The notes beneath the pieces were generated by a model. It worked only from the letters and a program-made list of their open reading frames with translations. It was not told where the DNA came from and did not search any database. A stretch of 64,000 nt of DNA from NCBI RefSeq assembly GCF_019204045.1, contig NZ_JAGSPC010000001.1, positions 930,001 to 994,000 of the forward strand. Reading direction: 5' to 3'. Every line of letters starts with the position of its first letter. Position 1 is the first letter of the stretch. Of the stretch, positions 32,942 through 62,718 are shown piece by piece. A program made the translations under genes and the position numbers. The DNA comes from Erythrobacter crassostreae. GTDB lineage: Bacteria > Pseudomonadota > Alphaproteobacteria > Sphingomonadales > Sphingomonadaceae.

Positions 32942-35094
32942 CAGCCGGTCTCCTGTGCGAATTCAGTTTGCCCGTTGTTGTTTGCGACTGCCGGAGCAGG
33001 ATCGGTTTCGGTTTCACCGATCACGCCGATCACCTCGACGCCTTGTGTGGCAGGCAATTCATGGATGGATAAAACTTGGCAGCTGCGCGCACGCTGCCGC
33101 AGCAATGTCGCGAGCGATCGGCGCGCTGGCGGCTGCACGATCAGAGCAATCGGCCCGCCGGCCTCGTCAATCATTTCATTGATCCGGCGCACGATCATAG
33201 CACCGCAATCGGGCTCGATCAGTGGGTGGCCGGTCGCAGGATCGGGCATTCCTCCCAGTATCGCCGCTTCGAGCCCGGCATCCAGTGTCGCGACTTTGAG
33301 TGATGAACCGGGCTCGCAAATGCGCGCCACAAGCCTTGCTCCGAGATCGCTTCGGACAGCATCGATCAGCGCTTCGAAATCCTGATTGGTCTGCAATGCC
33401 AGCGCCAAACTGGTAAAGATCGGCTGCGGATGGGACAGGCCGATGCCGTCAGCAATCAGAGCGCGCATCATGCGGGTCATCGCCGCCAGAGAAAGCGGCT
33501 CAGGATGGACTGCATCGACCAGAGCGGGCGCGCGTTCCTTCAAATCGTCGAGCAATTCGCGCACCTCGACCGGGCCGAGCAATTCATGCGCCTGCGCCAG
33601 CAATACCTGATTGGTGTGGGTGGCGATCACGGTGCTTGGATCGACTGTCAGGAACCCTTCGGCAACTGCATGGTCGTGCAGCGAAGGATCGACCCACAGG
33701 GCCGGACAATCGAAGCTGGGGTCGCGCGTTGCCTCGCCCGTCAGGCCGTGTCCGCTGCGCACATCGCCGGTGTCTATCGCGAGCAGTTTGGCCGGTTTGA
33801 CGCTGCCCATGGCAACACAGACACCGCCGACGGTGACCGAGTAATCCTGAGAGCCGATGTCCAAAGAATCGCGGATGCGGAATTGCGGCAAGACAAACCC
33901 AAGATCGCGGCTTAGCTGTTTGCGGATGCCGGTAATGCGAGTGAGCAATGGCGCATCTTTGGCCTTGTCCACCAGATGCACCAGACCGTAACCCAGCTCG
34001 ATCGTAACCAGCGTTTGGTCGCTGACATCGGACAGTTCGATCCGGTCAGGCGGCACTTCTTCGGCGGCCGGTTCCTCCTCTGCCGGCTCTAAAGCACGCT
34101 GGCGGGTTCTCCACCAGATCGCCCCGGCGATGGCAGCGGCGGGGAAGAAAATCATCTGCGGCATCGCAGGCACCATGCCGATTGCGAGCAGGATCAATGC
34201 AACCGCGATCCAACCGCGTGGATCGGAAAACTGTCCGCTAATCTGTCCTGCCAGATCGCGGGTGTCCGAAACGCGGGTTACGATGGCGGCAGCGGCAATC
34301 GACAGCAGCAGCGCGGGCACCTGTGCGACCAAAGCATCACCGACCGCGAGGGTGATATACAACTCTGCCGCCTCGCCTGCAGATAAGCCATGTGTCGCCA
34401 TGCCCAGCGCGAAGCCGGCGATGATATTCACGCCCAGGATCAAAAGCGCGGCAATTGCATCGCCTTTCACGAATTTGGACGCACCATCCATCGAACCGTA
34501 GAAATCGGCCTCGACGGTGACTTGTGATCGGCGCGCGCGTGCCTCATCGGCGGTGATCAATCCGGCTGCGATATCGGCGTCGATTGCCATCTGTTTGCCT
34601 GGCAAAGCATCCAGCACAAATCGGGCGGAAACCTCCGACACGCGCCCGGCGCCTTTCGTGATCACGATCATGTTGATGATGAGTAGGATCGTGAACACGA
34701 ACAGTCCGACAGCGAAGTTGCCACCGACCAGAAACTGGCCAAAGCTTTCAATAATCTCGCCTGCTGCCGCGCCGCCTTCGTGTCCGTTGACCAGAACGAT
34801 CCGAGTGGATGCAACGTTCAGGGCAAGGCGAAGCAAGGTCGCGAACAACAGGACCGAGGGGAAAGACGAGAAATCGAGCGGTTCGCGCGCATTCAAGGCG
34901 ACCATAAGTACCGCGACCGTGATCGCGATGTTCAGGACAAAGAATATGTCCAGCATCGTTGTCGGGATGGGCAGCACCATCAGTACGAACAGCGCAAAGA
35001 TACCCACGGGCAGCGCCATGGCTGCCGGCGCCTTTTTCAGGCGATCGAGCCATGACATGGCGCCGCTCCCTGTTGGGTTTGCAGAAGCGCTCAC
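32941..35094 (-). CDS. flhA: Flagellar type III export gate protein FlhA
   Basis: A 717-residue inner membrane protein of the flagellar export apparatus. The N-terminal half has eight hydrophobic segments including PLDFSSFPSVLLFATLLRLALNVASTRIVL and the FHIPEP-type signature region (GRVSEVSARFVLDALPGKQMAIDADI). The C-terminal cytoplasmic half (from about residue 340) is the substrate- and chaperone-docking domain. Length matches the family. It overlaps the transglycosylase gene by four bases upstream and fliA by one base downstream. Confidence 0.96.
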   Translation of the reverse strand: MSASANPTGSGAMSWLDRLKKAPAAMALPVGIFALFVLMVLPIPTTMLDIFFVLNIAITVAVLMVALNAREPLDFSSFPSVLLFATLLRLALNVASTRIVLVNGHEGGAAAGEIIESFGQFLVGGNFAVGLFVFTILLIINMIVITKGAGRVSEVSARFVLDALPGKQMAIDADIAAGLITADEARARRSQVTVEADFYGSMDGASKFVKGDAIAALLILGVNIIAGFALGMATHGLSAGEAAELYITLAVGDALVAQVPALLLSIAAAAIVTRVSDTRDLAGQISGQFSDPRGWIAVALILLAIGMVPAMPQMIFFPAAAIAGAIWWRTRQRALEPAEEEPAAEEVPPDRIELSDVSDQTLVTIELGYGLVHLVDKAKDAPLLTRITGIRKQLSRDLGFVLPQFRIRDSLDIGSQDYSVTVGGVCVAMGSVKPAKLLAIDTGDVRSGHGLTGEATRDPSFDCPALWVDPSLHDHAVAEGFLTVDPSTVIATHTNQVLLAQAHELLGPVEVRELLDDLKERAPALVDAVHPEPLSLAAMTRMMRALIADGIGLSHPQPIFTSLALALQTNQDFEALIDAVRSDLGARLVARICEPGSSLKVATLDAGLEAAILGGMPDPATGHPLIEPDCGAMIVRRINEMIDEAGGPIALIVQPPARRSLATLLRQRARSCQVLSIHELPATQGVEVIGVIGETETDPAPAVANNNGQTEFAQETG

Positions 35095-36104
35095 AGACCG
35101 AACGCCTTCAATTGGTTGTAAGCACGTTCAATACGCTGTGCTGCCTCTGGTGTGGGGCTGGCCAATCCGCCCATTTGCCCGAATGTCGCATTCAGCATCG
35201 CCGACATTGGCGGTCTGGTTTGCGCTGTCCTTTGCTCGGTCGGGGCAGGCAAACCGCCAGTGATGGCAGTCGGGTTGGCAGGGGCAAACACAGCTTCATT
35301 CGCGATCGGATAGAGCGGGCGCTGCGCTGATAGAGCTGCAACGGCATAGTCTGGCCGCAACGCTGCGCCGGACGGAAGCGAAGGCGCCATCGCGAGCGCG
35401 CGATCGAGCTTTGATGACAGGAAATCCATCACCCCGGCGAGGCTGCGCGGAGAGCCGCTGGGCTCATAAAAAACTGGGCGATTTGCCGAGGCGGGGCGAG
35501 GGAATATCGCGGCAGCGCTTTGATTGGGATTTTGGGCCAATGCCGTCAAAAACCGGCTTGCACCCCCTGCGCCAAGAAAGTGCGCGAGGTACAGTTCATT
35601 GCTCTCCGGCTCGCGGCCGACGATAGGCATGAGCTTCGCACGGTTATCCTCGGCAAGACCGGCGGCCATGAATGACGCAATTTGCGGGTCGTTGCGCATT
35701 TCCAGGATCGCGCTGCGTTGCCCGCGATCTGGAACATAAGCCGCGCCGCTTGCGGATGTGCTGATTTGATCTGCGATGTTTCCAAGGCCGAACCGGGCTC
35801 CGTGCCGTTTCATCGTGCCGAGCCATGTGCTCTCGATAAATTGGTAGAGCCCTGTCGCGGATGATGTGCTGGCCTTCGCAGTGGGATCCATCGACGACTC
35901 AACTTGAGCCTGCGCGAGCAGAAAATCGAAATCGACACTGGTCTTGCGTGCAGCCGTGGCAATCGCATGTTCGACAGGAGAGGCCGATTGCTTCGTGGCA
36001 ATTGACCGAGCGGCAGGGTTTGGAGACGGGGCCTCACGATGGGCGCGGGCAGCGCTTTCAAAATCGCGCCGTAAGCTGGCGACTTGTGTAGCGGGTTGGC
36101 TCAT
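35091..36104 (-). CDS. SLT-type lytic transglycosylase of the flagellar locus
   Basis: A 337-residue protein with a goose-lysozyme-like SLT domain: FLLAQAQVESSMDP (catalytic Glu69) and SATGLYQFIESTWL, followed by AHFLGAGGASRFL. A low-complexity Pro/Ala region comes after residue 200. It opens the operon with flhA and fliA and is downstream of a sigma-54 promoter, so it probably clears peptidoglycan for rod assembly. This replaces the muramidase domain missing from FlgJ in this genome. No obvious cleavable signal is seen; it may be exported with the flagellar system. Confidence 0.85.
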   Translation of the reverse strand: MSQPATQVASLRRDFESAARAHREAPSPNPAARSIATKQSASPVEHAIATAARKTSVDFDFLLAQAQVESSMDPTAKASTSSATGLYQFIESTWLGTMKRHGARFGLGNIADQISTSASGAAYVPDRGQRSAILEMRNDPQIASFMAAGLAEDNRAKLMPIVGREPESNELYLAHFLGAGGASRFLTALAQNPNQSAAAIFPRPASANRPVFYEPSGSPRSLAGVMDFLSSKLDRALAMAPSLPSGAALRPDYAVAALSAQRPLYPIANEAVFAPANPTAITGGLPAPTEQRTAQTRPPMSAMLNATFGQMGGLASPTPEAAQRIERAYNQLKAFGL

Positions 36105-40033: not shown

Positions 40034-40390
40034 ATGAGCGAGCAGATATTCGGCATCCACGGCGCCGCGCTTGAACTGCGTTCAAAGCGCATGGGCGTGC
40101 TTGCCTCGAACATCGCGAACGCCGCGACACCCGGATACAAAGCGCGCGACATCGATTTTGCTGCTGCGCTTAACGCGCGTCTATCAGACGGCGAAGACGG
40201 TCCTGCCGGGTCAGGCGGCAGAGACCATATGGTCTACAAGGTGCCGACTATGGCCACGCTTGACGGCAATACGGTTGAGCTTGGCCGCGAACAGGTCGCC
40301 TTTGCTGAAAATGCGATGGCGTATTCTGCCACGCTCAGTTTTGTGCAGGGCAAGGTCAACACCCTCACCCGCGCGCTGAAGGGTGAATGA
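40034..40390 (+). CDS. flgB: Flagellar rod protein FlgB
   Basis: A 118-residue proximal rod protein. The N-terminal motif LASNIANAATPGYKARDIDF is the shared rod/hook signature and the C-terminal AYSATLSFVQGKVNTLTRALKG helix completes it. AGGAGG upstream of the ATG sets the start, and an upstream in-frame start is not supported. It heads the flgBCDEFGHIJKL operon. Confidence 0.95.
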   Translation: MSEQIFGIHGAALELRSKRMGVLASNIANAATPGYKARDIDFAAALNARLSDGEDGPAGSGGRDHMVYKVPTMATLDGNTVELGREQVAFAENAMAYSATLSFVQGKVNTLTRALKGE

Positions 40391-40803
40391 CGATGTCCGA
40401 TAGCAACCCGATGACACTATTTTCGATGACGGAACGGGCCATGTCGGCCCAGATGGTCCGGATGAATGCCGCCACGTCGAACCTTGCTAATGCAGGATCG
40501 GTCGCGAGCAGCGAGGCGGAGGCTTATCGCCCTATCCGCGTACGTTTTGCCAGCGAGCTTGATCAGGCGACAGGTCTGTCCGGCGTGCGCAGCGACGGGA
40601 TCGTCCGCAGCGAAACCGCTCCGGTCAAACGATACGAACCGAGCAATCCTCTTGCCGATGCCGAAGGGCATGTGTGGGAGGCCCCCGTCGATGAAAGCGC
40701 CGAGATGATCGAGATCATGGAAAGCGCGCGTCAGTACCAGAATCTGGTTCAGGCGCTGACGACAGCCAAACAGCTGATGCTGGAAACTCTCAGGAGCAAT
40801 TGA
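40387..40803 (+). CDS. flgC: Flagellar rod protein FlgC
   Basis: A 138-residue rod protein with the RMNAATSNLANAGSV N-terminal motif and a C-terminal helix ending LVQALTTAKQLMLETL. It overlaps the flgB stop by four bases, and two closely spaced ATGs are possible starts. Confidence 0.95.
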   Translation: MTMSDSNPMTLFSMTERAMSAQMVRMNAATSNLANAGSVASSEAEAYRPIRVRFASELDQATGLSGVRSDGIVRSETAPVKRYEPSNPLADAEGHVWEAPVDESAEMIEIMESARQYQNLVQALTTAKQLMLETLRSN

Positions 40804-40805
40804 TC

Positions 40806-41201
40806 ATGAATATCACCCCTTCGGCCCCCGCAACCGCCGATATTCAATCGACGCTGGACCGGATCAACACCTCGTCTGCGCCATCATCCAGCAATGGATT
40901 GGGATCGCTGGATCAATCCGATTTTCTGCGTCTTTTGACCACTCAATTGACGCTTCAGGACCCGCTAGAACCAGCCAATAACGAAGAGATGCTTGCCCAA
41001 ATGGCGCAGTTTTCCTCGCTTGCTGCTTCAACTGATTCGAGCGAAACTTTGAACGAGATTTCCGGCAAGCTTGATAATCTAATCGCCGCCCAAAACGCCG
41101 CTGCCGAAGCAAGCCGTGCTGCAATCGAAGCTGCTGCCGAAGCTGCTCGTGCAGCAGCGACCGGCTCCGTTTCCGACGGCTCTCTTCCGACTGCAATTTA
41201 A
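40806..41201 (+). CDS. flgD: Flagellar hook assembly protein FlgD, short form
   Basis: A 131-residue protein with the FlgD N-terminal region: LGSLDQSDFLRLLTTQLTLQDPLEPANNEEMLAQMAQFSSLAASTD. FlgD normally has about 220 residues or more, with C-terminal tudor-like and fibronectin-like domains. Those are missing here and the tail is an Ala-rich helix. It caps the growing hook and may work with the shortened FlgE. AGGAG nine bases upstream supports the ATG. Confidence 0.88.
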   Translation: MNITPSAPATADIQSTLDRINTSSAPSSSNGLGSLDQSDFLRLLTTQLTLQDPLEPANNEEMLAQMAQFSSLAASTDSSETLNEISGKLDNLIAAQNAAAEASRAAIEAAAEAARAAATGSVSDGSLPTAI

Positions 41202-41234
41202 TCCCTACTAGACCCTAACAAGGAACCCCCGACC

Positions 41235-42047
41235 ATGTCCTTTTTCACCTCTCTTGGCGGCATGAAGAATGCCGAAACCGATTTGCGGGTCATCTCGCAC
41301 AACATCGCCAATGCCGAGACGGCAGGCTTTAAGAAAAGCAACGCACAGTTCAGCGATCTTGTCGCCAATGGCTCTGCAAACGATCCGCGCCGCACGCCGG
41401 GCATTGGCGCTGCAGTGTCATCGATCAATCAGGATTTCTCGCTCGGCCCAATCGAACAAACGGGTCGCAGTCTAGACGTCTCGATCAATGGCGGCGGTTT
41501 TTTTGCGACCGCCAATCCGATCTCCGGCGATCTGGCTTTTACTCGCAACGGCAATTTTAAGATTGATGCAGGCGGGGCGCTGCAAGACGCCAATGGCGAT
41601 CTGGTTCAGGCCTTTCCTGTTGACGCGACCGGCGCTGTTACATCGACAACACCGGCCAACGCCGTAATCCCGACAACCAACGGCGCTGGCGCGACGCTTT
41701 CGAGCGTCTCGATTGATCGCAATGGTTTGATCACCGCTGCGTATAGCGACGGAACGACAGAACCGGTTTCTGCTGTTGCCTTGGCGACATTCCCGGCGAC
41801 CAACGGCCTGCGCTCAATTGGCCAGACGAAATGGGAAGCTACCGGCGATTCCGGAACGGCTGTGTATGGTGCACCGGGTATAGGCAATGTTGGCGATCTG
41901 CTTTCGGGTACGCTCGAACGTTCGAATGTCGATCTGGCTGAAGAAATGGTCTCTCTGCTTACCGCGCAGCGCAATTTTCAGGCCAATGCCCGCGCCATCG
42001 ATACCGCCACTGCCATCTCCCAGACAGTTCTGAACCTGCAGCGGTAG
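41235..42047 (+). CDS. flgE: Flagellar hook protein FlgE, short form
   Basis: A 270-residue protein with the hook/rod N-terminus (RVISHNIANAETAGFKKSNAQFSDL), a central GGGFFATANP segment and a C-terminal LLTAQRNFQANARAIDTATAISQTVLNLQR helix. The usual FlgE of about 400 residues has extra outer domains, so this one is among the shortest. The position between flgD and flgF supports the name. The length suggests a thinner or less decorated hook. Confidence 0.88.
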   Translation: MSFFTSLGGMKNAETDLRVISHNIANAETAGFKKSNAQFSDLVANGSANDPRRTPGIGAAVSSINQDFSLGPIEQTGRSLDVSINGGGFFATANPISGDLAFTRNGNFKIDAGGALQDANGDLVQAFPVDATGAVTSTTPANAVIPTTNGAGATLSSVSIDRNGLITAAYSDGTTEPVSAVALATFPATNGLRSIGQTKWEATGDSGTAVYGAPGIGNVGDLLSGTLERSNVDLAEEMVSLLTAQRNFQANARAIDTATAISQTVLNLQR

Positions 42048-42057
42048 GGGCTGATCC

Positions 42058-42798
42058 GTGGACCGTCTTATCTACACAGCGCTAGCGGCGATGAACGCCG
42101 CAATGGACCGGCAAAGGACCGTTGCGAACAATCTCGCCAACGCCACAACACCCGGATTTCGCGGAGAAATATTCTCTGTGAAAGCGGCCACAGTGCGCGA
42201 TGGTTCGCCAGAGGCGCGCTCCATGGCGCGCGGCAGTGTGCGCGGCGCAGATATGACTCAAGGCCGCGTTACGCCCACCGGTCAGCCGATGGATATCGCC
42301 GTCAACGGGAAGGCTCTGATCGCGTATCAGGCCCCCGATGGCGGAGAAATTTATTCGCGCCGCGGAGACTTGCGCGTCGCACCGTCTGGCTTGATCGAAA
42401 ACGGCGAAAGACTGCCCGTGATGGGCGAAAACGGTCCGATCACCGTTCCTGCAGGTTTCACCATCAGCATTGCGCAAGACGGCACAGTCTTGGGCGCCGA
42501 TCCGGCCGCGCCAGAGAATCCTGCAGAGCCACTGGGCCGGATCAAGCTGGCATCGCCCGATGGCAGTGCGCTCGCAAAAGGGATCGACAGTTTTCTGAAA
42601 GTGGTGGGTGGCGGCGTGCTGCCCGCTGATCCAACTGCCCAGGTAACCACCGGCGCGCTGGAGCAATCCAACGTCGAAACCGCCGATACTTTGGTTGCCA
42701 TGATCGAGGCCCAGCGTGCGTTCGAGCAGCGCGCGAAAATCATCAGCACCGCAGGCGAGCTTGATGAAGCAGGCAGCCGCTTGATGTCGATGAGCTGA
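42058..42798 (+). CDS. flgF: Flagellar rod protein FlgF
   Basis: A 246-residue proximal rod protein starting at GTG. It has the QRTVANNLANATTPGFRGEIF N-terminus and the MIEAQRAFEQRAKIISTAGELDEAGSRLMS C-terminus of the rod family. It lies 10 bases past flgE. Confidence 0.94.
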   Translation: MDRLIYTALAAMNAAMDRQRTVANNLANATTPGFRGEIFSVKAATVRDGSPEARSMARGSVRGADMTQGRVTPTGQPMDIAVNGKALIAYQAPDGGEIYSRRGDLRVAPSGLIENGERLPVMGENGPITVPAGFTISIAQDGTVLGADPAAPENPAEPLGRIKLASPDGSALAKGIDSFLKVVGGGVLPADPTAQVTTGALEQSNVETADTLVAMIEAQRAFEQRAKIISTAGELDEAGSRLMSMS

Positions 42799-42843: not shown

Positions 42844-43635
42844 ATGCCAAATTCAGCTCTACACGTCGCCCGAACGGGGCTTGAAGCGCAAGATGCGCGG
42901 ATGCGTGTTATCGCGAACAATCTCGCGAATATCGGCACCACTGGTTTTAAGCGCGACCGCGCGGATTTCGCGACGCTTGCGTATCAGGATCAACGCGTCG
43001 CCGGACAGCAATCGACTGGACAAACTGCATACGCGGTGGGTCTGAACCTTGGCACCGGCGTGCAGGTGATGGGCACTAGCCGGATTGACAGTCAGGGGAC
43101 GCTCAACACAACCGGCAACACTCTGGATGTTGCTCTGGATGGCCCCGGTTTCTTTCAGGTTGAACTGCCGGGAGGCGGCGAGCTTGCCTATACCAGAGCA
43201 GGCAATTTCACGCTCTCGCCGGAGGGCCAGTTGATCACATCGCAAGGCTATACCGTGACGCCGGCGATCCAGATCCCGCAAGGGGTAGAATCGATCACAA
43301 TTGCACCAGATGGCACTGTCAGCGCGACGCAGCCGGGCACCGCTGCTCCGGTTCAACTTGGGCAGCTGACCGTTGCAAATTTCGTCAATCCGGCGGGCCT
43401 GCGTGCAATTGGCGACAACTTCCTCGTTGAAACAGGTGCGAGCGGGCAGGCGGAAATTGGACCCGCAGGCCAGAATGGTCGCGGCAATGTGCGTCAGGGA
43501 ATGCTGGAAGCCTCCAACGTCAATGTTGTCGAGGAGCTGGTCGAAATGATCGAGGCTCAGCGCGCCTACGAGATCAATTCAAAGATGGTCAGCGCGGTTG
43601 ATGAAATGCTCCGCAACGCGAATCAGACGCTTTGA
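42844..43635 (+). CDS. flgG: Flagellar distal rod protein FlgG
   Basis: A 263-residue distal rod protein with RVIANNLANIGTTGFKRDRADF near the N-terminus, the DVALDGPGFFQVELPGG core and the EMIEAQRAYEINSKMVSAVDEMLRNANQTL C-terminus. Its length matches the family. An AAGGGA site precedes the ATG. Confidence 0.96.
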   Translation: MPNSALHVARTGLEAQDARMRVIANNLANIGTTGFKRDRADFATLAYQDQRVAGQQSTGQTAYAVGLNLGTGVQVMGTSRIDSQGTLNTTGNTLDVALDGPGFFQVELPGGGELAYTRAGNFTLSPEGQLITSQGYTVTPAIQIPQGVESITIAPDGTVSATQPGTAAPVQLGQLTVANFVNPAGLRAIGDNFLVETGASGQAEIGPAGQNGRGNVRQGMLEASNVNVVEELVEMIEAQRAYEINSKMVSAVDEMLRNANQTL

Positions 43636-44382: not shown

Positions 44383-45489
44383 ATGACAAAGTTTTCCAAA
44401 CTGATCGGCCTGATTATCGCTTTGTTTGCGGTGATGACGCCTGTCGGCGTCTCCGCCGAACGTATTCGTGACCTGGGCGAGTTTGAGGGCCTAAGGACCA
44501 ACCAGCTCACCGGTTATGGCGTGGTGGTTGGTCTGCAGGGCACGGGCGATGACAATCTTCAATATGTGACCGAAGCGATGAAGGGCGTGTCTGGCCGGTT
44601 GGGCCTGCAATTGCCGCCCGGTGTCAGCCCCAATCTGCGCAATGCGGCAGCGGTGATCATTACCGCTGAACTGCCAGCCTTTGCTAAACCAGGCCAGCGG
44701 ATCGACATTACCGTGTCCACGCTGGGTCAGGCGAAAAGCCTTCGCGGCGGCGCACTCGTTTTGGCCCCTCTTTACGGTGCTGACGGCCTGATTTATGCGA
44801 TGGCGCAGGGTAATATTGCGGTTGGTGGCCTCGGCGTATCAGGCCGCGACGGATCCCAATTGACCGTCAATGTCACAACCGTTGGCCGCATCGCAGATGG
44901 CGCCTCTGTCGAACGGGCGGTCGCCACCGGTTTCGACCGCGAAGGTACGTTGAGCTTCAACTTGCACCGCGCCGATTTCCTAACCGCATCACGTGTGCGC
45001 GACGCCATCAACACGCTGTACCCAGGTATGGCGCGCATTTCAGATGGTGTGAGCATCGAGCTTACTCTGCCATTCGGCAATGACATCCGCGCCGCCAAGC
45101 TGGCCGAGATCGAGATGCTGGCGGTCACGCCCGCGCCGGTTGCAGCCAGAGTTATCGTCAACAGCCGCACGGGCACAGTCGTGATCAACCAATCGGTGCG
45201 CCTGTCGCCCGCAGCGATCAGCCACGGCAAGCTTGTTATCCGGATCGACGAATCCCCGCGCGTTGTTCAGCCGGAGCCATTCACCGATGGCGAAACCGCA
45301 CTTGAAGAGGCCAGCGAAATCACTGTTACCGAGCGGTCTGACCGGGTCGCATTGATGCCAGGCGCGGCCTCTCTCAGCGAGATTGTCGATGCGCTTAACC
45401 TCCTCGGCGTTGGCGCTTCCGATTTGGTGGTGATCCTCGAGAGCCTGAAACAGGCGGGCGCTTTGCAAGCCGAAATGGTCGTGCTGTGA
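44383..45489 (+). CDS. flgI: Flagellar P-ring protein FlgI
   Basis: A 368-residue periplasmic P-ring subunit. It has a signal peptide (hydrophobic residues 8-22, cleavage near GVSA), then RIRDLGEFEGLRTNQLTGYGVVVGLQGTGDD and the conserved repeats through ASLSEIVDALNLLGVGASDLVVILESLKQAGAL. It is the partner of the FlgA chaperone encoded upstream on the other strand. Confidence 0.97.
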   Translation: MTKFSKLIGLIIALFAVMTPVGVSAERIRDLGEFEGLRTNQLTGYGVVVGLQGTGDDNLQYVTEAMKGVSGRLGLQLPPGVSPNLRNAAAVIITAELPAFAKPGQRIDITVSTLGQAKSLRGGALVLAPLYGADGLIYAMAQGNIAVGGLGVSGRDGSQLTVNVTTVGRIADGASVERAVATGFDREGTLSFNLHRADFLTASRVRDAINTLYPGMARISDGVSIELTLPFGNDIRAAKLAEIEMLAVTPAPVAARVIVNSRTGTVVINQSVRLSPAAISHGKLVIRIDESPRVVQPEPFTDGETALEEASEITVTERSDRVALMPGAASLSEIVDALNLLGVGASDLVVILESLKQAGALQAEMVVL

Positions 45490-45788
45490 TTACCGCGCCA
45501 TCCTCTGCTTCGCCCGGTGCGACGCCTGAAACACTCTCCCCAGAGCGGAGCGAGCTGCGCGAAGCTGCGCAGGGTTTTGAAGCGATCATTATCCGCCGGA
45601 TGCTCGAATCCGCGCGCGCTTCAAGCTTTGCCGAAGACACGCCGTTAACCGGTGGCGGTCTTCAGCAGTTCGAAAAAATGCGTGATGAACACTTTGCAGA
45701 TGTTGCGGCAGAAACGGGCTCCTTCGGGTTTGCACAGAGTATCGAGGAACAGCTTGCTCAATACGTTGATGGGCATGGAGGTATGTAA
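45486..45788 (+). CDS. flgJ: Rod-binding protein FlgJ, N-terminal domain only
   Basis: A 100-residue protein matching only the rod-scaffold part of FlgJ: EAAQGFEAIIIRRMLESAR and GGLQQFEKMRDEHFADVAAETGSFGFAQSIEEQL. The C-terminal muramidase domain is absent; a separate lytic transglycosylase is encoded with flhA. It starts at GTG overlapping the flgI stop by four bases. Confidence 0.9.
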   Translation: MITAPSSASPGATPETLSPERSELREAAQGFEAIIIRRMLESARASSFAEDTPLTGGGLQQFEKMRDEHFADVAAETGSFGFAQSIEEQLAQYVDGHGGM

Positions 45789-47146: not shown

Positions 47147-48064
47147 ATGACCACACTCGGCAATCCCACTGCGGCCTATTTCAATCGTTCACTTGACCAG
47201 ATGGCCAATCTGCGCGGCTCGATCGAGCGTTTGCAAACGCAGGTTGCGACCGGTCAACGGATTGAGCGTGCTTCGGATGATCCAACCGGAGCGGCGCGTT
47301 TGCGCGCGCTTGACCGGCTCGACCGGCTTGGCGCTGTCGAACAGGACAATGCGGCCAAGCTCGCACAGGACTTAACCTTTGCCGCCGATCAGATGGGCGG
47401 GGTTGCGAACCTGATTATCAGAACGCGCGAGCTCGCACTTTCTGCGGCGAGCGATACATTGCCGGATGAAGCGAAGGCGGCCATCGCTGAAGAGCTGGAA
47501 CAGTTGGGCGAGGAATTGTTCGACCGCGCCAATGGCACCACCCTGACCGGAGAGCCTTTGTTCGCGGGCACCGCCGCTGGTCCGGCATTCACCCGCGATG
47601 CTGCGGGAAATGTGACCTATGCAGGCAACAATGAAATTGGCGCGGTCACCGTTGCTCGCGGGACAGAGATAGAACGCGGGGTTGCTGGCAATGATGTCTT
47701 TGAATTCCCTGTTAGCGGCACACCAACCAGCACATTTGCGCTGATCAATGGCCTTGCCGACGCTTTGCGCGGTGCATCTGCGGACCCGACCGCTGCGGCC
47801 CAGGCTGCTTTGGAAGGGTTGGACATCGCGCTGGAATCGACGACCCGAAATCAGGCGGTGCTGGGCACGCGGCTCGCCTGGGTTGAGGTAATCCAACAAA
47901 ATCAGGCCGACGAAAAGATTTCCATTGCGGAGCAACGATCAGACGTTGGCGATACCGATATCGCCAGCGCAATCGCGCAATTGCAGCAAACTCTAACCGC
48001 GCTTGAAGCCAGTCAGGCTAGCTTTGCGCGTGTCAGCTCGCTGTCCCTTTTTCGCGCGCTCTAA
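47147..48064 (+). CDS. flgL: Flagellar hook-associated protein FlgL (HAP3)
   Basis: A 305-residue protein with flagellin-like N- and C-termini (LQTQVATGQRIERASDDPTGAARL; SDVGDTDIASAIAQLQQTLTALEASQASFARVSSLSLFRAL). It completes the hook-filament junction with FlgK and lies 18 bases downstream of flgK. Confidence 0.94.
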   Translation: MTTLGNPTAAYFNRSLDQMANLRGSIERLQTQVATGQRIERASDDPTGAARLRALDRLDRLGAVEQDNAAKLAQDLTFAADQMGGVANLIIRTRELALSAASDTLPDEAKAAIAEELEQLGEELFDRANGTTLTGEPLFAGTAAGPAFTRDAAGNVTYAGNNEIGAVTVARGTEIERGVAGNDVFEFPVSGTPTSTFALINGLADALRGASADPTAAAQAALEGLDIALESTTRNQAVLGTRLAWVEVIQQNQADEKISIAEQRSDVGDTDIASAIAQLQQTLTALEASQASFARVSSLSLFRAL

Positions 48065-49954: not shown

Positions 49955-52390
49955 ATGACAGAAACAATCCTGCCGCATGAATTGCCGCATGCGCTTAACC
50001 GCGCACCCGCTGGCGTAAAGCTGCTTTCGCTCGATTGTTTTGACACGCTGTTATGGCGCGATCGCCATGCGCCGACCGATGTCTTTTCCGAATTGCAGGG
50101 CGTTTTGCCTGGTCAACGCATCGTTGGTGAGGCGAATGCACGGAAAATCCGCCGGACGCTTCGGCGCAGCAATGAAGTCGGGCTTGGCGAAATATACGAG
50201 CAAGTGATGCCGAACGCTTCGACGGATGCGCGAAGGCAAGCGATCGCGGAAGAACTCGCTGCTGAGGCGCGGAGCTGTTTTGCCTTTGAACCGACGGTTG
50301 AATTGATGCGCGCCGCCAAGGCGGAAGGCTTGGCGGTCATCATCGTTTCCGACACATATCTGGATGTCACGCAGCTGGAACAGTTGATCCGGGCTGCCGC
50401 TGGAGATGAAGTCGCAGACCTGATTGACCGCGTTTTTGCCTCTTCACAGGCCGGAATATCCAAAGGCGAAGGCCTGCTCGCTAAAGCATTGAAAACGATG
50501 AAATGCCGCCCGCATGAGGCGCTGCATCTGGGGGACAACAAGGCGGCAGATTTTGAAGCGTCACGTGCGCTCGGCGTGCCCGCGCTGCACCTGAAACAAT
50601 TTGGCACAGCTGCGCTGCAACGTCTGCGATTTGAGCGCGCTTTTGGACAGCTTATCGGTGAAACTAGCGACGGTGTTCGCGGTCTCCAAACGCACCGCGC
50701 GCTGATTTCAAGAGATGAGACGTCAGACCGCGATCCGGTCAAAGGCCTTGGTTATTCGGTGTTGGGTCCGGTTTTCGCCGCGTTTGACCAGTGGTTGCAT
50801 GCGCAAGCAAAAGCGCTCGCCAATTCGAATGGCGGAAAGGTCCATTGGCTTTTCATGCTGCGCGACGGTCACCTGCCTTGGCTTGTGCATGAAGCGGGCA
50901 ATCCGGTTGGAGAGACAGCGAGGGTCGAGATCAGCCGGTTCGCCGCGACCGCCGCATCGCTGACCACGCGTGATGCCTATGAACACCATCTGGCGATGGA
51001 GCACGGGCTAAATCCCTCTACGCTCGCGCGGCAGATGCTGCTCAATGAAGACGAGATTGCGCGAATTATCGGATCGCCTGAAAGCGATGAAGAGAAAACC
51101 GAAGCAAGCGCCAAGCTGCTTACGGAACTGCGCAAAGGACAACGCCAGAAGACGACGATCCGGCGCGCTCGCGCATTTGCCGATCGGTTGACATCGCATG
51201 TGCGCCAAGCAGCCAATCCGCAGCCAGGCGATACGCTGATGCTGGTTGATCTTGGATACAATGGATCTGCGCAAAATTGCGTTGACGCGCTGCTGCGAGA
51301 GACTTTTGATGTGCATGTCGCAGGCCGGTATCTGCTGCTGCGCGAAATGCAGACGACCGGTCTGGACAAGAGCGGTTTGATCGATGCGCGCAATTTCGAT
51401 CCTGAGTTTCTCGAAGCTTTGTGCGGCAATGTTGCTGTGATCGAACAGTTGGCGACATGCGAACTCGGATCGGTGGTAGATTACACACAAACCGGCGATC
51501 CGATCCGCAAAGATAGCGCTGTCAAAGGCAAGCAAAGCGAAGTGCGCGATGCAGTGCAGCGCGGGGTTGTGTCCTTTGCAAAGGCATCCGCCAATCCGCC
51601 GGTGATCCGCCAGCAAGATAGTCATGCAGAGCGGGCATGGCGTGACGGCGCGGCGGCAGCCCTTGGCCGGTTTATGTTCCTGCCACTGCCGCATGAATTG
51701 GATGTCGTCAGCCGGTTTGAGCACGACGTGAACATGGGCAGCGAGCGCATGGTGGCCTTATTCGACGCTGACCATGCGCGCGAAGGAATGCGACGCCGCG
51801 GGCTCTTTTACATGAAGGGTTCGGCGCGGATGTTCCTACCAGCCGAACTGGCGCATGAAGACATGAGCACCCGACTGGCATTGATCGCCCAAAAACGGTT
51901 CGGGCTTGGCCTTAACTATACCGATTATGCGCCGACCGTGCAGAAATTACCGGTGTTCTACGTCAATGAAAACGACACAGCGGTGTCATCGGTCGAAGCC
52001 CGCGCCACGCATGACGGGTACTTTTCCGCCAGGGTTCCATTGGGTGAACGTGGCTACGGCGCGGCCTTACAATTGGGCGCGGCATATGAATGGATCGAGC
52101 TTGCCTCGATCACTTGCGCTCCCGTCAGCGCCCTTACCGGAAGCACCGCGAACGATGCAAAGCCGGTGCCGGTCACTTCGCAATTTGATGGGCTTGAAGA
52201 GCGCGCCCCCGGATTGTTCGAATGCACTTCGGAACATGCAGTCGCGCTCGTCCCGCCGGATGGAGTGCCCGCATCCGATGAACCGCTGATGTTAGAATTT
52301 GTATTCCGTCCTCTGAGGAAACGCGGGGAGAGCGCCATCCCTTTTGCTGCACGTGCAGCGTCCATTTCGGCAAAGGAGAAAGCCGCATGA
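49955..52390 (+). CDS. COG5610-like HAD-superfamily protein next to flagellin
   Basis: An 811-residue protein. The N-terminal HAD domain (about residues 20-220) has SLDCFDTLLW (nucleophile Asp27), IIVSDTYL, SKGEGLLAKAL and HLGDNKAADFEAS. The middle and C-terminal regions (FMLRDGHLPWLVHEAG and onwards) match the extended architecture of COG5610 proteins that accompany glycan synthesis genes. No glycosyltransferase signature is clear. It overlaps the following methyltransferase gene by four bases, and both lie between the motor genes and flagellin. A role in flagellin modification is therefore plausible but inferred from position. Confidence 0.75.
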   Translation: MTETILPHELPHALNRAPAGVKLLSLDCFDTLLWRDRHAPTDVFSELQGVLPGQRIVGEANARKIRRTLRRSNEVGLGEIYEQVMPNASTDARRQAIAEELAAEARSCFAFEPTVELMRAAKAEGLAVIIVSDTYLDVTQLEQLIRAAAGDEVADLIDRVFASSQAGISKGEGLLAKALKTMKCRPHEALHLGDNKAADFEASRALGVPALHLKQFGTAALQRLRFERAFGQLIGETSDGVRGLQTHRALISRDETSDRDPVKGLGYSVLGPVFAAFDQWLHAQAKALANSNGGKVHWLFMLRDGHLPWLVHEAGNPVGETARVEISRFAATAASLTTRDAYEHHLAMEHGLNPSTLARQMLLNEDEIARIIGSPESDEEKTEASAKLLTELRKGQRQKTTIRRARAFADRLTSHVRQAANPQPGDTLMLVDLGYNGSAQNCVDALLRETFDVHVAGRYLLLREMQTTGLDKSGLIDARNFDPEFLEALCGNVAVIEQLATCELGSVVDYTQTGDPIRKDSAVKGKQSEVRDAVQRGVVSFAKASANPPVIRQQDSHAERAWRDGAAAALGRFMFLPLPHELDVVSRFEHDVNMGSERMVALFDADHAREGMRRRGLFYMKGSARMFLPAELAHEDMSTRLALIAQKRFGLGLNYTDYAPTVQKLPVFYVNENDTAVSSVEARATHDGYFSARVPLGERGYGAALQLGAAYEWIELASITCAPVSALTGSTANDAKPVPVTSQFDGLEERAPGLFECTSEHAVALVPPDGVPASDEPLMLEFVFRPLRKRGESAIPFAARAASISAKEKAA

Positions 52391-53208
52391 CCAATCTATT
52401 GATCCATTCGATGTCTGAATTTTCCGGGATTATCATGCCCTGTCTGGTGGAAGCCAAAGTCGCCAATATCACCGAGATTGGCAGTGAATTTGGCGGCATG
52501 TCCAGAGTGCTGGCCGATCATTGTGAGGGGCAGGGAGGAACCCTGACCTGCTTCGATCCCGAACCGGATCCCAGTTTTTCAGAATGGGCAGAAGAACACG
52601 CCGCTGTTTGCCATGTGAAACAGCCCAGTCTGGATGCGCTGGAGACCGCAGGCCCTGCTGATGCGTGGTTTGTTGATGGCGATCATAACTATTTTACGGT
52701 TTTCAATGAGCTCGTGCATGTTGACCGGATATGCCGCGAAGCAGATCGGCCTCTGCTGGCGTTCTTGCACGATGTCTCATGGCCGTGCGCGCGGCGCGAT
52801 TTTTACTACGCGCCATCTCGGGTTCCGGACGATTGGCGTCACCCGCATAGTTACGACCATGGTGTCGTCCTCGACGATGACGGTGCTCTGAAGGATCGCG
52901 GCTTTCGCGGCGGCGGCAGCTTTGCTGTCGCCTTGGAAGCAGGTGGTCCGCATAACGGCGTGCTGACCGCTGTCGAGGATTTCATCGCCCAGACCGACAC
53001 CGAAGAACGCCCGCTCTACTATGTCCATGTGCCAGCGGTTTTCGGGCTCGGCATTGTGTTTGATGCCAGCGCGCCTTGGGCAGAAACGCTTGGCAAGTTC
53101 CTGTTACCGTACCACGAAAACTCCCTAATCGCGCGGCTCGAAGAAAACCGGCTGCGCAACTATCTCGAAGTGATCGATTGGCAGGATCGCAAGTCTTCTA
53201 CGGCTTAG
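52387..53208 (+). CDS. SAM-dependent methyltransferase-like protein next to flagellin
   Basis: A 273-residue protein with a Rossmann methyltransferase pattern: ITEIGSEFGGMSRVLADHC (SAM motif I), GTLTCFDPEPD (acidic loop), and DAWFVDGDHNYFTVFNEL, typical of the Methyltransf_24 / cephalosporin-hydroxylase-like group. It overlaps the HAD-protein stop by four bases. Position next to flagellin suggests methylation of a flagellin glycan or of flagellin itself, but the target is not shown. A bidirectional terminator separates it from fliC. Confidence 0.78.
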   Translation: MTNLLIHSMSEFSGIIMPCLVEAKVANITEIGSEFGGMSRVLADHCEGQGGTLTCFDPEPDPSFSEWAEEHAAVCHVKQPSLDALETAGPADAWFVDGDHNYFTVFNELVHVDRICREADRPLLAFLHDVSWPCARRDFYYAPSRVPDDWRHPHSYDHGVVLDDDGALKDRGFRGGGSFAVALEAGGPHNGVLTAVEDFIAQTDTEERPLYYVHVPAVFGLGIVFDASAPWAETLGKFLLPYHENSLIARLEENRLRNYLEVIDWQDRKSSTA

Positions 53209-60762: not shown

Positions 60763-61210
60763 AAAGCGCCAGCTTGCGCTTCTGCGCCGTCAGCAAATGC
60801 TTGCCACCATTGCGCGGCGTGAAGCGATGCGTTCGCTTGCCGATGCGGTGGGCGAAGAGAGCAGGAGCGCAGGGCTCGCAAATCGTAGCCGTGAACTCGC
60901 CGCCACTTATCAATCACGCATCGGTGCCACGAATGGCGAAACGGTTCGCCTTTCGGGACAGTTTGCCGGATCGCTCGCGGCGCTGGCACATTACGCGGAC
61001 CAATCACGCGGTCAGGCAGTGGAGCAGATCGAAAGCGGGCAGGAGGTGTTGGCGGCTGCCGATAATCGCATGCGCCGTTTGAGCGAAAAGGCGCAGCGCG
61101 CGCAGCAGGACCTGGAGGCCCGTAAGGAAGGTCGCAATGCCGAGTTTGGCGTGCGGCTGGCACGCAAGTTGCAGAACGACGGGGACGGCCAATTGAGGAG
61201 CCCCCGATGA
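60755..61210 (+). CDS. fliJ: Flagellar export protein FliJ
   Basis: A 151-residue, strongly helical coiled-coil-type protein in the fixed position between fliI and fliK. Sequence similarity within FliJ is low; the assignment rests on length, helicity (Arg/Glu/Gln-rich heptads) and gene order. It overlaps the fliI stop by eight bases. Confidence 0.85.
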   Translation: MREKRQLALLRRQQMLATIARREAMRSLADAVGEESRSAGLANRSRELAATYQSRIGATNGETVRLSGQFAGSLAALAHYADQSRGQAVEQIESGQEVLAAADNRMRRLSEKAQRAQQDLEARKEGRNAEFGVRLARKLQNDGDGQLRSPR

Positions 61211-62718
61211 ATTTGAATGCGCTTGATTTCCACTCGCTGCTTCCCGTTCCGAAAGCTGGACTGAAACTGCCCGATGGAATCGAAACTAGTCTTGAACCGG
61301 TGCCGGGGGATGTGGGTCCTGCCCTTTTGGAAAGCCCGGATGTTCCGCTGAAACCGTCCTTTGCGGGCATCCTTGATGCCAAGGCAGAAGCGCGGCTGGA
61401 CGTGAAACCGGAATTGGCGAAGGCCGGGTCAATTGATGCGGCCGCAACGCCGAGTGCTGAAGCGGTTGGCCGCCCGGCGAGTCCATTGCCGCCCGGCAGT
61501 TTGATGCCGCAATCCGGAAACAGCTTGCCGGTCAGCACGACTGCGGCAATCGCGCCCGCACAATCGGACCTCGGCAACGTCCAAGTGACGTCGGAGCCTT
61601 TGCGAGATGTCAAAGAGACGCCTTTGAAGGGCGGCGAGCCTCCGCTCAACCAGACAGCATTGTCGCAAGACGGCAACAGAATTGCGGCCCCGGCGGCTAA
61701 GACTGCTGCTTTGGAGCAAACGCCAGAGGCACGAGTTGACGATGTCAAATTTTCACAGCGAGTTGCGGTGACGGACCGCACGCCGGCATCCCTAACTGAT
61801 GTTGCGGCTGGCAAGCAGGTTCAGCCGGCGAGCAGCGTTGCGGCTGTTCAGGCGGCTATACCTGCTGCAATTCGGCAAATCCTTTCAGGCCGATCACAGG
61901 ATGTCCGACAGCGGCTAGAAGGGCAGGCGTGGATAGATCGGTCCACTCCTGCTCAACCCACTGCCAGCCAAAATGTCTCTCCGGCGATGCTGGAGGATGA
62001 GGTAACGGCGAAAGCGGACCCCAAAGGTGCTGTGGATGCCACCAAACGGCAGACTACCGGTTCGGAACAGTCCCTGACCGACCGCACCATTTTGAAGCTC
62101 GACCAATCGTCTCAGCAAGTGGCCCCTTCACCGACCTCTAACGGCACGCCTATGCCGGTGTTGGCTCCTGCCACTGCGTTTCAAGCGCCTTTTCAATCGC
62201 TAACTTCTCCGCCAATCGCAACAACCGCTCCCGCTGAAACTCGCGTTGCCGCTAGTATCGAGAACGCCGTTAGCCAATTGACCGAGGCGCGCGAAAGCGG
62301 CCGCAATATCCGCCCTGAGCTTGCGTTGAAGCACGCGGAGTTTGGCGCGGTTAATATGCGGCTGGAGAATGTTGCGGGTGATTTGCGCGCAACGCTTAGC
62401 AGCCGCGACCCGGGCTTTGTTCCCGCTGTTCAGGCGGCAATGCCGGAACGTGCTGTAGCCTTCAATACGGATCAGGGTTCAACTGCATCGCAGCGCGGCA
62501 ATGAAGGGATTGGAACGGGGCAATCGGGTAGCGGTAACACGGCGGGCCACGGCGGCAGCCTTCACGGCGGTGCAAACCAAAACTCCGATCCCCGCTACGG
62601 GTCTTCCACAGGGTCAGGTCAAGCATCGTCTCAACCATATTCAGCGCATCAAGCATCCGAAGAGCGAAACTTCGCAGCAAGCGAGCATGACAGGACCGAT
62701 AGCGGCCTGTTCGCCTGA
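61207..62718 (+). CDS. fliK: Flagellar hook-length control protein FliK
   Basis: A 503-residue protein with a long Pro/Ala/Ser-rich N-terminal part (about 360 residues, poorly conserved) and a C-terminal hook-length domain (IRPELALKHAEFGAVNMRLENVAGDLRATLSSRDPGFVPAVQA region at about residues 365-410). It ends with a Ser/Gly/His-rich tail. It measures the hook and switches export specificity; its match with the short FlgE and FlgD is of interest. It overlaps fliJ by four bases. Confidence 0.9.
   Translation: MNLNALDFHSLLPVPKAGLKLPDGIETSLEPVPGDVGPALLESPDVPLKPSFAGILDAKAEARLDVKPELAKAGSIDAAATPSAEAVGRPASPLPPGSLMPQSGNSLPVSTTAAIAPAQSDLGNVQVTSEPLRDVKETPLKGGEPPLNQTALSQDGNRIAAPAAKTAALEQTPEARVDDVKFSQRVAVTDRTPASLTDVAAGKQVQPASSVAAVQAAIPAAIRQILSGRSQDVRQRLEGQAWIDRSTPAQPTASQNVSPAMLEDEVTAKADPKGAVDATKRQTTGSEQSLTDRTILKLDQSSQQVAPSPTSNGTPMPVLAPATAFQAPFQSLTSPPIATTAPAETRVAASIENAVSQLTEARESGRNIRPELALKHAEFGAVNMRLENVAGDLRATLSSRDPGFVPAVQAAMPERAVAFNTDQGSTASQRGNEGIGTGQSGSGNTAGHGGSLHGGANQNSDPRYGSSTGSGQASSQPYSAHQASEERNFAASEHDRTDSGLFA

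Follow-up and report, generated by a model that had tools for sequence, protein, structure and literature searches.

The genes flgD and flgE of Erythrobacter crassostreae very probably encode a working flagellar hook that is reduced to its core and built under a cap made of the stalk only. Both lie in a stretch of 64,000 nucleotides (hereafter the window) of a genome of 2.59 Mb that is 84% complete. They sit between flgC and flgF in a flagellar region with the order flgB, C, D, E, F, G, H, I, J (the rod-binding part), K, L, motA and motB, which continues, after motB and some intervening frames, with flagellin, a sigma-54 activator, fliE, F, G, H and I, two frames and fliL; flhA is found upstream and FliD just beyond the edge of the 64-kb window. 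The domain content, conservation, selection and distribution of the pair were established directly. The relevant features are the following.

40387..40803, + strand: flgC, rod gene and upstream neighbour (Pfam and NCBIfam profile matches)
40806..41201, + strand: flgD, 131 aa, N-terminal stalk region with a short Ala-rich tail
41235..42047, + strand: flgE, 270 aa, hook protein with D0, Dc and D1
41313..41468, + strand: Dc region of FlgE, about residues 27-78 (counted by eye on alignments)
41610..41657, + strand: triangular loop of FlgE D1, residues 126-141 (alignment against the Salmonella limits in PMC5288503)
41673..41693, + strand: site in FlgE, about residues 147-153, where other hook proteins carry D2 (alignments)
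42058..42798, + strand: flgF, rod gene and downstream neighbour
42844..43635, + strand: flgG, distal rod protein, Dc segment of 27 residues
45788..47128, + strand: flgK, 446 aa, among the shortest class in the family comparison
47147..48064, + strand: flgL, 305 aa
53310..54128, - strand: flagellin, 272 aa, N- and C-terminal helical regions only
61207..62718, + strand: presumed fliK, 503 aa, named by its position before FliL

The flgE frame (41235-42047, 270 aa) ends in a stop codon and matches three Pfam families over their cut-offs, namely PF00460 (Flg_bb_rod), PF22692 (FlgE/F/G D1) and PF06429 (Flg_bbr_C), and the Pfam scan of this protein gave no match to PF07559 (FlgE_D2). The outer domain D2 is usual in Proteobacteria but does not define a hook protein, as the FlgE of Bacillus subtilis is without it. 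When FlgE is aligned with the full proteins of the family (Sphingomonadaceae as drawn by GTDB), one large block is missing at about residues 147-153, and the other gaps comprise only a few residues. This block corresponds to domain D2 of Salmonella FlgE (T141-G286; PMC5288503), roughly 146 residues; in the alignments the deletion ends at the limits of this domain and leaves D1 and D0 intact on either side. Pfam scans of family members gave the same picture: PF07559 was matched in all three long FlgE (L095, L133 and L093) and in neither of two short ones (L116 and L096).

The open frame of flgD (40800-41201) likewise ends in a stop codon and yields 133 aa from a TTG start or 131 aa from the ATG at 40806. 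PF03963 (N-terminal region) is the one family matched, over residues 23-85 of the 133-aa frame and with 64 bits against a cut-off of 27; the Pfam scan of this FlgD found neither PF13860 nor PF13861. The C-terminal Ig-like/tudor domain that forms the petals, which is usual but not universal in FlgD, is therefore absent, and the PF03963 region upstream of flgE is present. Among family members, PF13860 (Ig-like) was matched in both full FlgD (L095 and L116) and in none of three short FlgD (L133, L093 and L096). From this presence and absence pattern in both proteins, it follows that the shortening is a loss of defined domains. The 139-aa FlgD of L093 apparently retains some of the tudor stretch but nothing of the Ig-like part (alignment by eye; no Pfam match) and seems to be an intermediate kind. 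The preliminary description of this DNA, made from the letters alone, had claimed that FlgD stops after its N-terminal part and that FlgE, at 270 residues, lacks its outer domain, and both claims agree with the Pfam and alignment results, which leave PF03963 alone in FlgD and D0, Dc and D1 in FlgE.

Hook protein FlgE and rod protein FlgG are told apart by three features, the length of Dc, the triangular loop of D1, and D2, and in the first two the window FlgE has the hook form. By eye on alignments, its Dc segment from F39 to G56 counts 16 residues, and the same landmarks enclose 27 in FlgG (of the window and of Salmonella), 9 in Salmonella FlgE and 16 in the polar-flagellum FlgE of PDB 8z5u; in the family, 71 of the 73 short FlgE and 31 of the 50 long ones have the 16-residue segment too, and the 18-residue Dc insertion of the FlgG type is absent from the window FlgE. 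Its triangular loop (residues 126-141) aligns with Salmonella G117-A134, 16 residues against 18, when the Salmonella limits are taken from PMC5288503. An AlphaFold model of FlgE (50 sequences, mean pLDDT 70), which is good only in D1 and falls under 50 in parts of D0 and Dc, was compared through its D1 with Pseudomonas FlgE D1 (Z 22.7, 148 residues, 1.9 A), the Salmonella FlgE fragment 1wlg (Z 20.6, 147 residues, 2.0 A) and the FlgG D1 fragment 6jf2 (Z 17.5, 126 residues, 1.5 A), so that about 20 more residues superpose on the D1 of FlgE than on that of FlgG. The top NCBIfam score of the protein is also for FlgE, with 259 bits against a cut-off of 400. Four other short FlgE reach 258-285 bits, and the D2-bearing L095 itself, with 387, stays under 400; thus the cut-off does not discriminate in Sphingomonadaceae, and the idea that the missing D2 explains the low score was dropped. 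As judged from alignments, profiles and model, the window FlgE is a hook protein and not a second rod protein.

We surveyed the distribution of both proteins, calling FlgE short below 320 aa and FlgD short below 160 aa. Among 95 readable family loci, 32 are short in both, 14 in FlgE only, 15 in FlgD only and 34 in neither; these derive from 100 loci hand-picked, with different genera favoured, from about 150 FlgD places among the matches listed, and as these places were ordered by score with the weakest matches missing, the proportions are not those of a random sample. Left out were L135, L168 and L190 (no FlgE found beside FlgD), L191 (FlgE cut by a contig end) and L160, in which two overlapping frames of 257 and 228 aa make up flgE, read here as a frameshift or a sequencing error in a full-length gene. 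Of the 298 family genomes, 200 have FlgD and 108 any FlgE_D2, some of the latter away from the main flgDE locus. In the class, FlgD was found in 133 of 241 genomes, and among the matches listed open frames under 180 aa belong only to the window genome, one genus relative and one family relative, the open frames being upper limits behind which some short FlgD may hide. Of 20 class loci, 7 were set aside for having no complete FlgE beside FlgD; the other 13 gave lengths for both proteins, and every one of these pairs is long. The NCBIfam FlgD model PRK06009 (108 positions) gave matches in 132 of the 241 class genomes and none over its cut-off, so no further group of short FlgD was revealed. Two gammaproteobacterial metagenome bins (L286 and L290) have FlgD called at 85-90 aa beside full FlgE of 454-516 aa, and by this token short FlgD may also occur outside Sphingomonadaceae. 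Named loci that are short in both proteins come from Erythrobacter, Porphyrobacter, Novosphingobium, Croceicoccus, Qipengyuania, Alteraurantiacibacter and Sphingopyxis, and those with short FlgE and full FlgD from Sphingobium and Blastomonas sp. AAP53; as the query that retrieved the 80 named loci was mostly short FlgE, short FlgE is over-represented among them.

Besides a core-only hook, three other readings have to be weighed. The short FlgE resembles FlgG in length and domain layout, the NCBIfam FlgG model PRK12636 covers nearly the whole of it (172 bits), and its score falls under every FlgE equivalog cut-off, as would be expected of an extra FlgG-like rod protein with the true hook protein encoded elsewhere. 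We consider this very improbable, since a FlgG over its own cut-off is already present at 42844-43635, the hook-type Dc, the triangular loop, the D1 superposition and the highest NCBIfam score all point to FlgE, and the genome matches are limited to FlgE, FlgF and FlgG. A hidden full-length FlgE was rejected on the same grounds, as no FlgE_D2 match occurs elsewhere in the 84% complete genome, nor in six other genomes of the genus sampled, one of which likewise has no FlgD. That the two proteins are truncated remains of a flagellum in the course of being lost is more improbable still, to the point of being hardly credible. Flagellum loss does occur in the genus, where 12 of 36 other genomes gave no FlgE/F/G-like match, so that flagella are not universal there. 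However, D2 is excised at its borders, a large flagellar gene set remains (FlgB, FlgH and FlgI; FlhA, FliE, FliF, FliG, FliH, FliI and FliL; MotA, MotB; flagellin; FliD), and the same short pair recurs in the relatives: FlgE is present in 24 of the 36 (once as a fragment), both genes are readable in 22 of these 24 loci (L009 and L027 gave no FlgD), and in 22 of 22 both are short, with FlgE of 269-279 and FlgD of 101-136 aa. The dN/dS values against the nearest relative, 0.037 for flgE and 0.065 for flgD, resemble those of flgC (0.040) and flgF (0.049), although these are rough, as dS is high (0.77-1.68). A pseudogene reading is ruled out by the alignments, the dN/dS values and the genus loci, and on this comparative evidence flgD and flgE are under purifying selection, with the short pair fixed in the genus and the losses old rather than a decay. 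Relatives with normal FlgD and FlgE, which the preliminary description had named as the observation that would speak against it, were thus not what the genus offered. Its view of the genes as adaptive rather than broken holds for their being intact and conserved, and for "adaptive" as far as purifying selection goes; its simplified hook agrees with the core-only domain content, but relatives of this strain share the shortening.

The third reading takes the two losses as one co-adapted change in which the petals match D2 and losing one forces the loss of the other, and the preliminary description had treated the two truncations together. Both-short is indeed the commonest state among the short-FlgE loci of the family (32 of 46) and is found in every row of the Erythrobacter/Novosphingobium clade (42 rows). 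Yet 14 family loci combine short FlgE with full FlgD and 15 the reverse, so that all four combinations of length occur and the losses are separable; an obligatory coupling is ruled out by these loci, and we regard a single co-adapted change as unlikely. The history of the genes was followed on two trees. Of 138 chosen rows, 9 in which FlgC, FlgF or FlgG was absent, short or out of order and 5 duplicates were excluded, and the remaining 124 gave a locus tree of FlgC, FlgF and FlgG; several of its deep branches are weak. On it the FlgE state changes at least four times and the FlgD state at least three times, and the independent events are too few for a correlation test. A tree of the FlgE core, with the D2 and junction columns removed (123 rows, L160 being out), places the short FlgE in two clades of 42 and 31 rows (support 100/100 and 99.5/100), that is, with two changes. 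A single clade of all short FlgE has a log-likelihood lower by 18.7 and is not rejected (p-AU 0.12; 52 rows), and two independent losses of D2 are the favoured scenario by these trees. The disagreement between the two trees suggests that flgE was exchanged between loci in the second, 31-row clade.

The junction and filament proteins were compared as well. FlgK has 442-446 aa in 13 of 13 short-FlgE loci, and in eight full-FlgE loci 448, 452, 532, 536 and, in four of them, 617-625 aa. The flagellin of the window has 272 aa, and the flagellin-family open frames of 12 short-FlgE genomes have 271-375 aa, which are upper limits. Four genomes with full FlgE and full FlgD have flagellins of 270, 272, 276 and 539 aa (best match, from the start codon). 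In four with full FlgE and short FlgD, FlgK (617-625 aa) and flagellin (723, 728, 730 and at least 709 aa, the last at a contig end) are both very large. Small filaments thus also occur beside full hooks, and the largest ones beside short FlgD. That short hooks accompany small junction and filament proteins is a lead suggested by these lengths, with few independent events behind it.

From these sequences we infer the assembly, diameter, shape, flexibility and motility of the hook as follows. FlgE retains the domains that polymerise and bend, namely D0, a hook-type Dc and D1 with its triangular loop, and is without the surface domain D2. In FlgD the C-terminal petals have been lost, and what remains is the N-terminal stalk, the part that forms a pentamer at the tip of the growing hook. 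The triangular loop is reportedly essential for hook assembly. That it persists after the loss of the D2 domain that is its partner in the adjacent subunit accords with a part of the loop in assembly as such. The hook would have roughly the diameter of the rod, some 13 nm instead of 18 nm, the difference between rod and hook being D2 (PMC5288503). It should stay flexible because the rigidifying FlgG stretch is absent, the insertion of which makes the Salmonella hook straight and rigid (PMC5399456, PMC5288503). A straight or weakly curved form would be expected, since the Salmonella hook is supercoiled by contacts between D2 domains, which are lacking here; Salmonella FlgE without D2 is reported to form a straight hook that can still bend, the packing of D2 being seen as the cause of supercoiling (PMC6874566). 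In Salmonella the N-terminal domain of FlgD is the essential part of the cap and by itself complements weakly, the C-terminal part raising efficiency (PMC8595650), so a stalk-only cap would need some compensation. Such a thin hook would sit in a flagellum with small junction and filament proteins.

A hook without D2 is not new in principle, as B. subtilis FlgE consists of D0, Dc and D1 only (PMC7595845), like that of the window, and our control genome of B. subtilis matched FlgD and not FlgE_D2. The B. subtilis protein has a GSS-like Dc stretch one residue shorter than that of FlgG (PMC7595845), whereas the window FlgE has no insertion but an ordinary hook Dc and a triangular loop, and belongs to a Gram-negative bacterium with P- and L-ring genes and D2-bearing relatives in its family. 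The engineered D2-deleted FlgE of Salmonella is equal to it in domain content (D0, Dc and D1; PMC6874566), the D2-less state being engineered there and natural and long fixed here; compared with Salmonella FlgE, the triangular loop of the window protein is two residues shorter and the Dc segment seven residues longer. In the Salmonella cap (PDB 7bhq; PMC8595650), the N-terminal stalk region aligns with the window FlgD, which is missing the tudor/fibronectin petal domain. Literature searches, with most subscription papers outside their scope, gave no title on a D2-less hook for Sphingomonadales or Sphingomonas FlgE and hooks, and for FlgE lacking D2 only Salmonella hooks and general motility.

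More tentatively, and with the chances slightly against it, the flagellum of Sphingomonadaceae may have been stripped to its core piecewise, perhaps more than once, with D2, the petals and the outer junction and filament parts varying separately. If so, natural hooks free of both D2 and the GSS stretch exist beside close relatives with full hooks, wild flagella can do without both D2 supercoiling and the FlgD petals, and flagella with thin filaments tend to shed the outer layer of the hook. The family offers natural versions of the engineered D2-less hook, with D2-bearing sister lineages and all four FlgD/FlgE combinations. Cultured strains could therefore be used to ask if hooks in nature need D2 for their curvature, and what the FlgD petals do. 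For annotation, a flagellar protein of this kind with 270 residues is to be called a hook protein, neither a truncated gene nor a rod protein.

Several further observations concern the surroundings of these genes. The two frames at the places of fliJ and fliK have no family match, and the 503-aa FliK candidate matched nothing in Pfam (E 0.01) or NCBIfam (E 0.001); a frame of the length that the preliminary description gave for a FliK of normal size is present, and its identity is given by position. The FlgJ-like protein (45486-45788) consists of the rod-binding part only, 100 aa, and a separate transglycosylase (SLT) gene at 35091-36104 adjoins flhA. Between motB and the flagellin gene (49955-53208) lie a methyltransferase and a protein of 811 aa that has a HAD-like hydrolase region; the two possibly have a role in flagellin modification. 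In ten family genomes (G305, G390, G392, G383, G541, G448, G459, G500, G452 and G590), FlgE_D2 matches, some of them weak, lie apart from the flgD place, which suggests that these genomes have, in addition to the slim flagellum, a flagellar system of a different type. Relatives of the short FlgE are also encoded on plasmid-listed replicons, one of 270 kb in Qipengyuania citrea (NZ_CP098495.1, 56% identical) and one of 850 kb in Sphingomonas paeninsulae (NZ_CP032828.1, 42% identical), and the flagellar cluster can thus sit on a secondary replicon.
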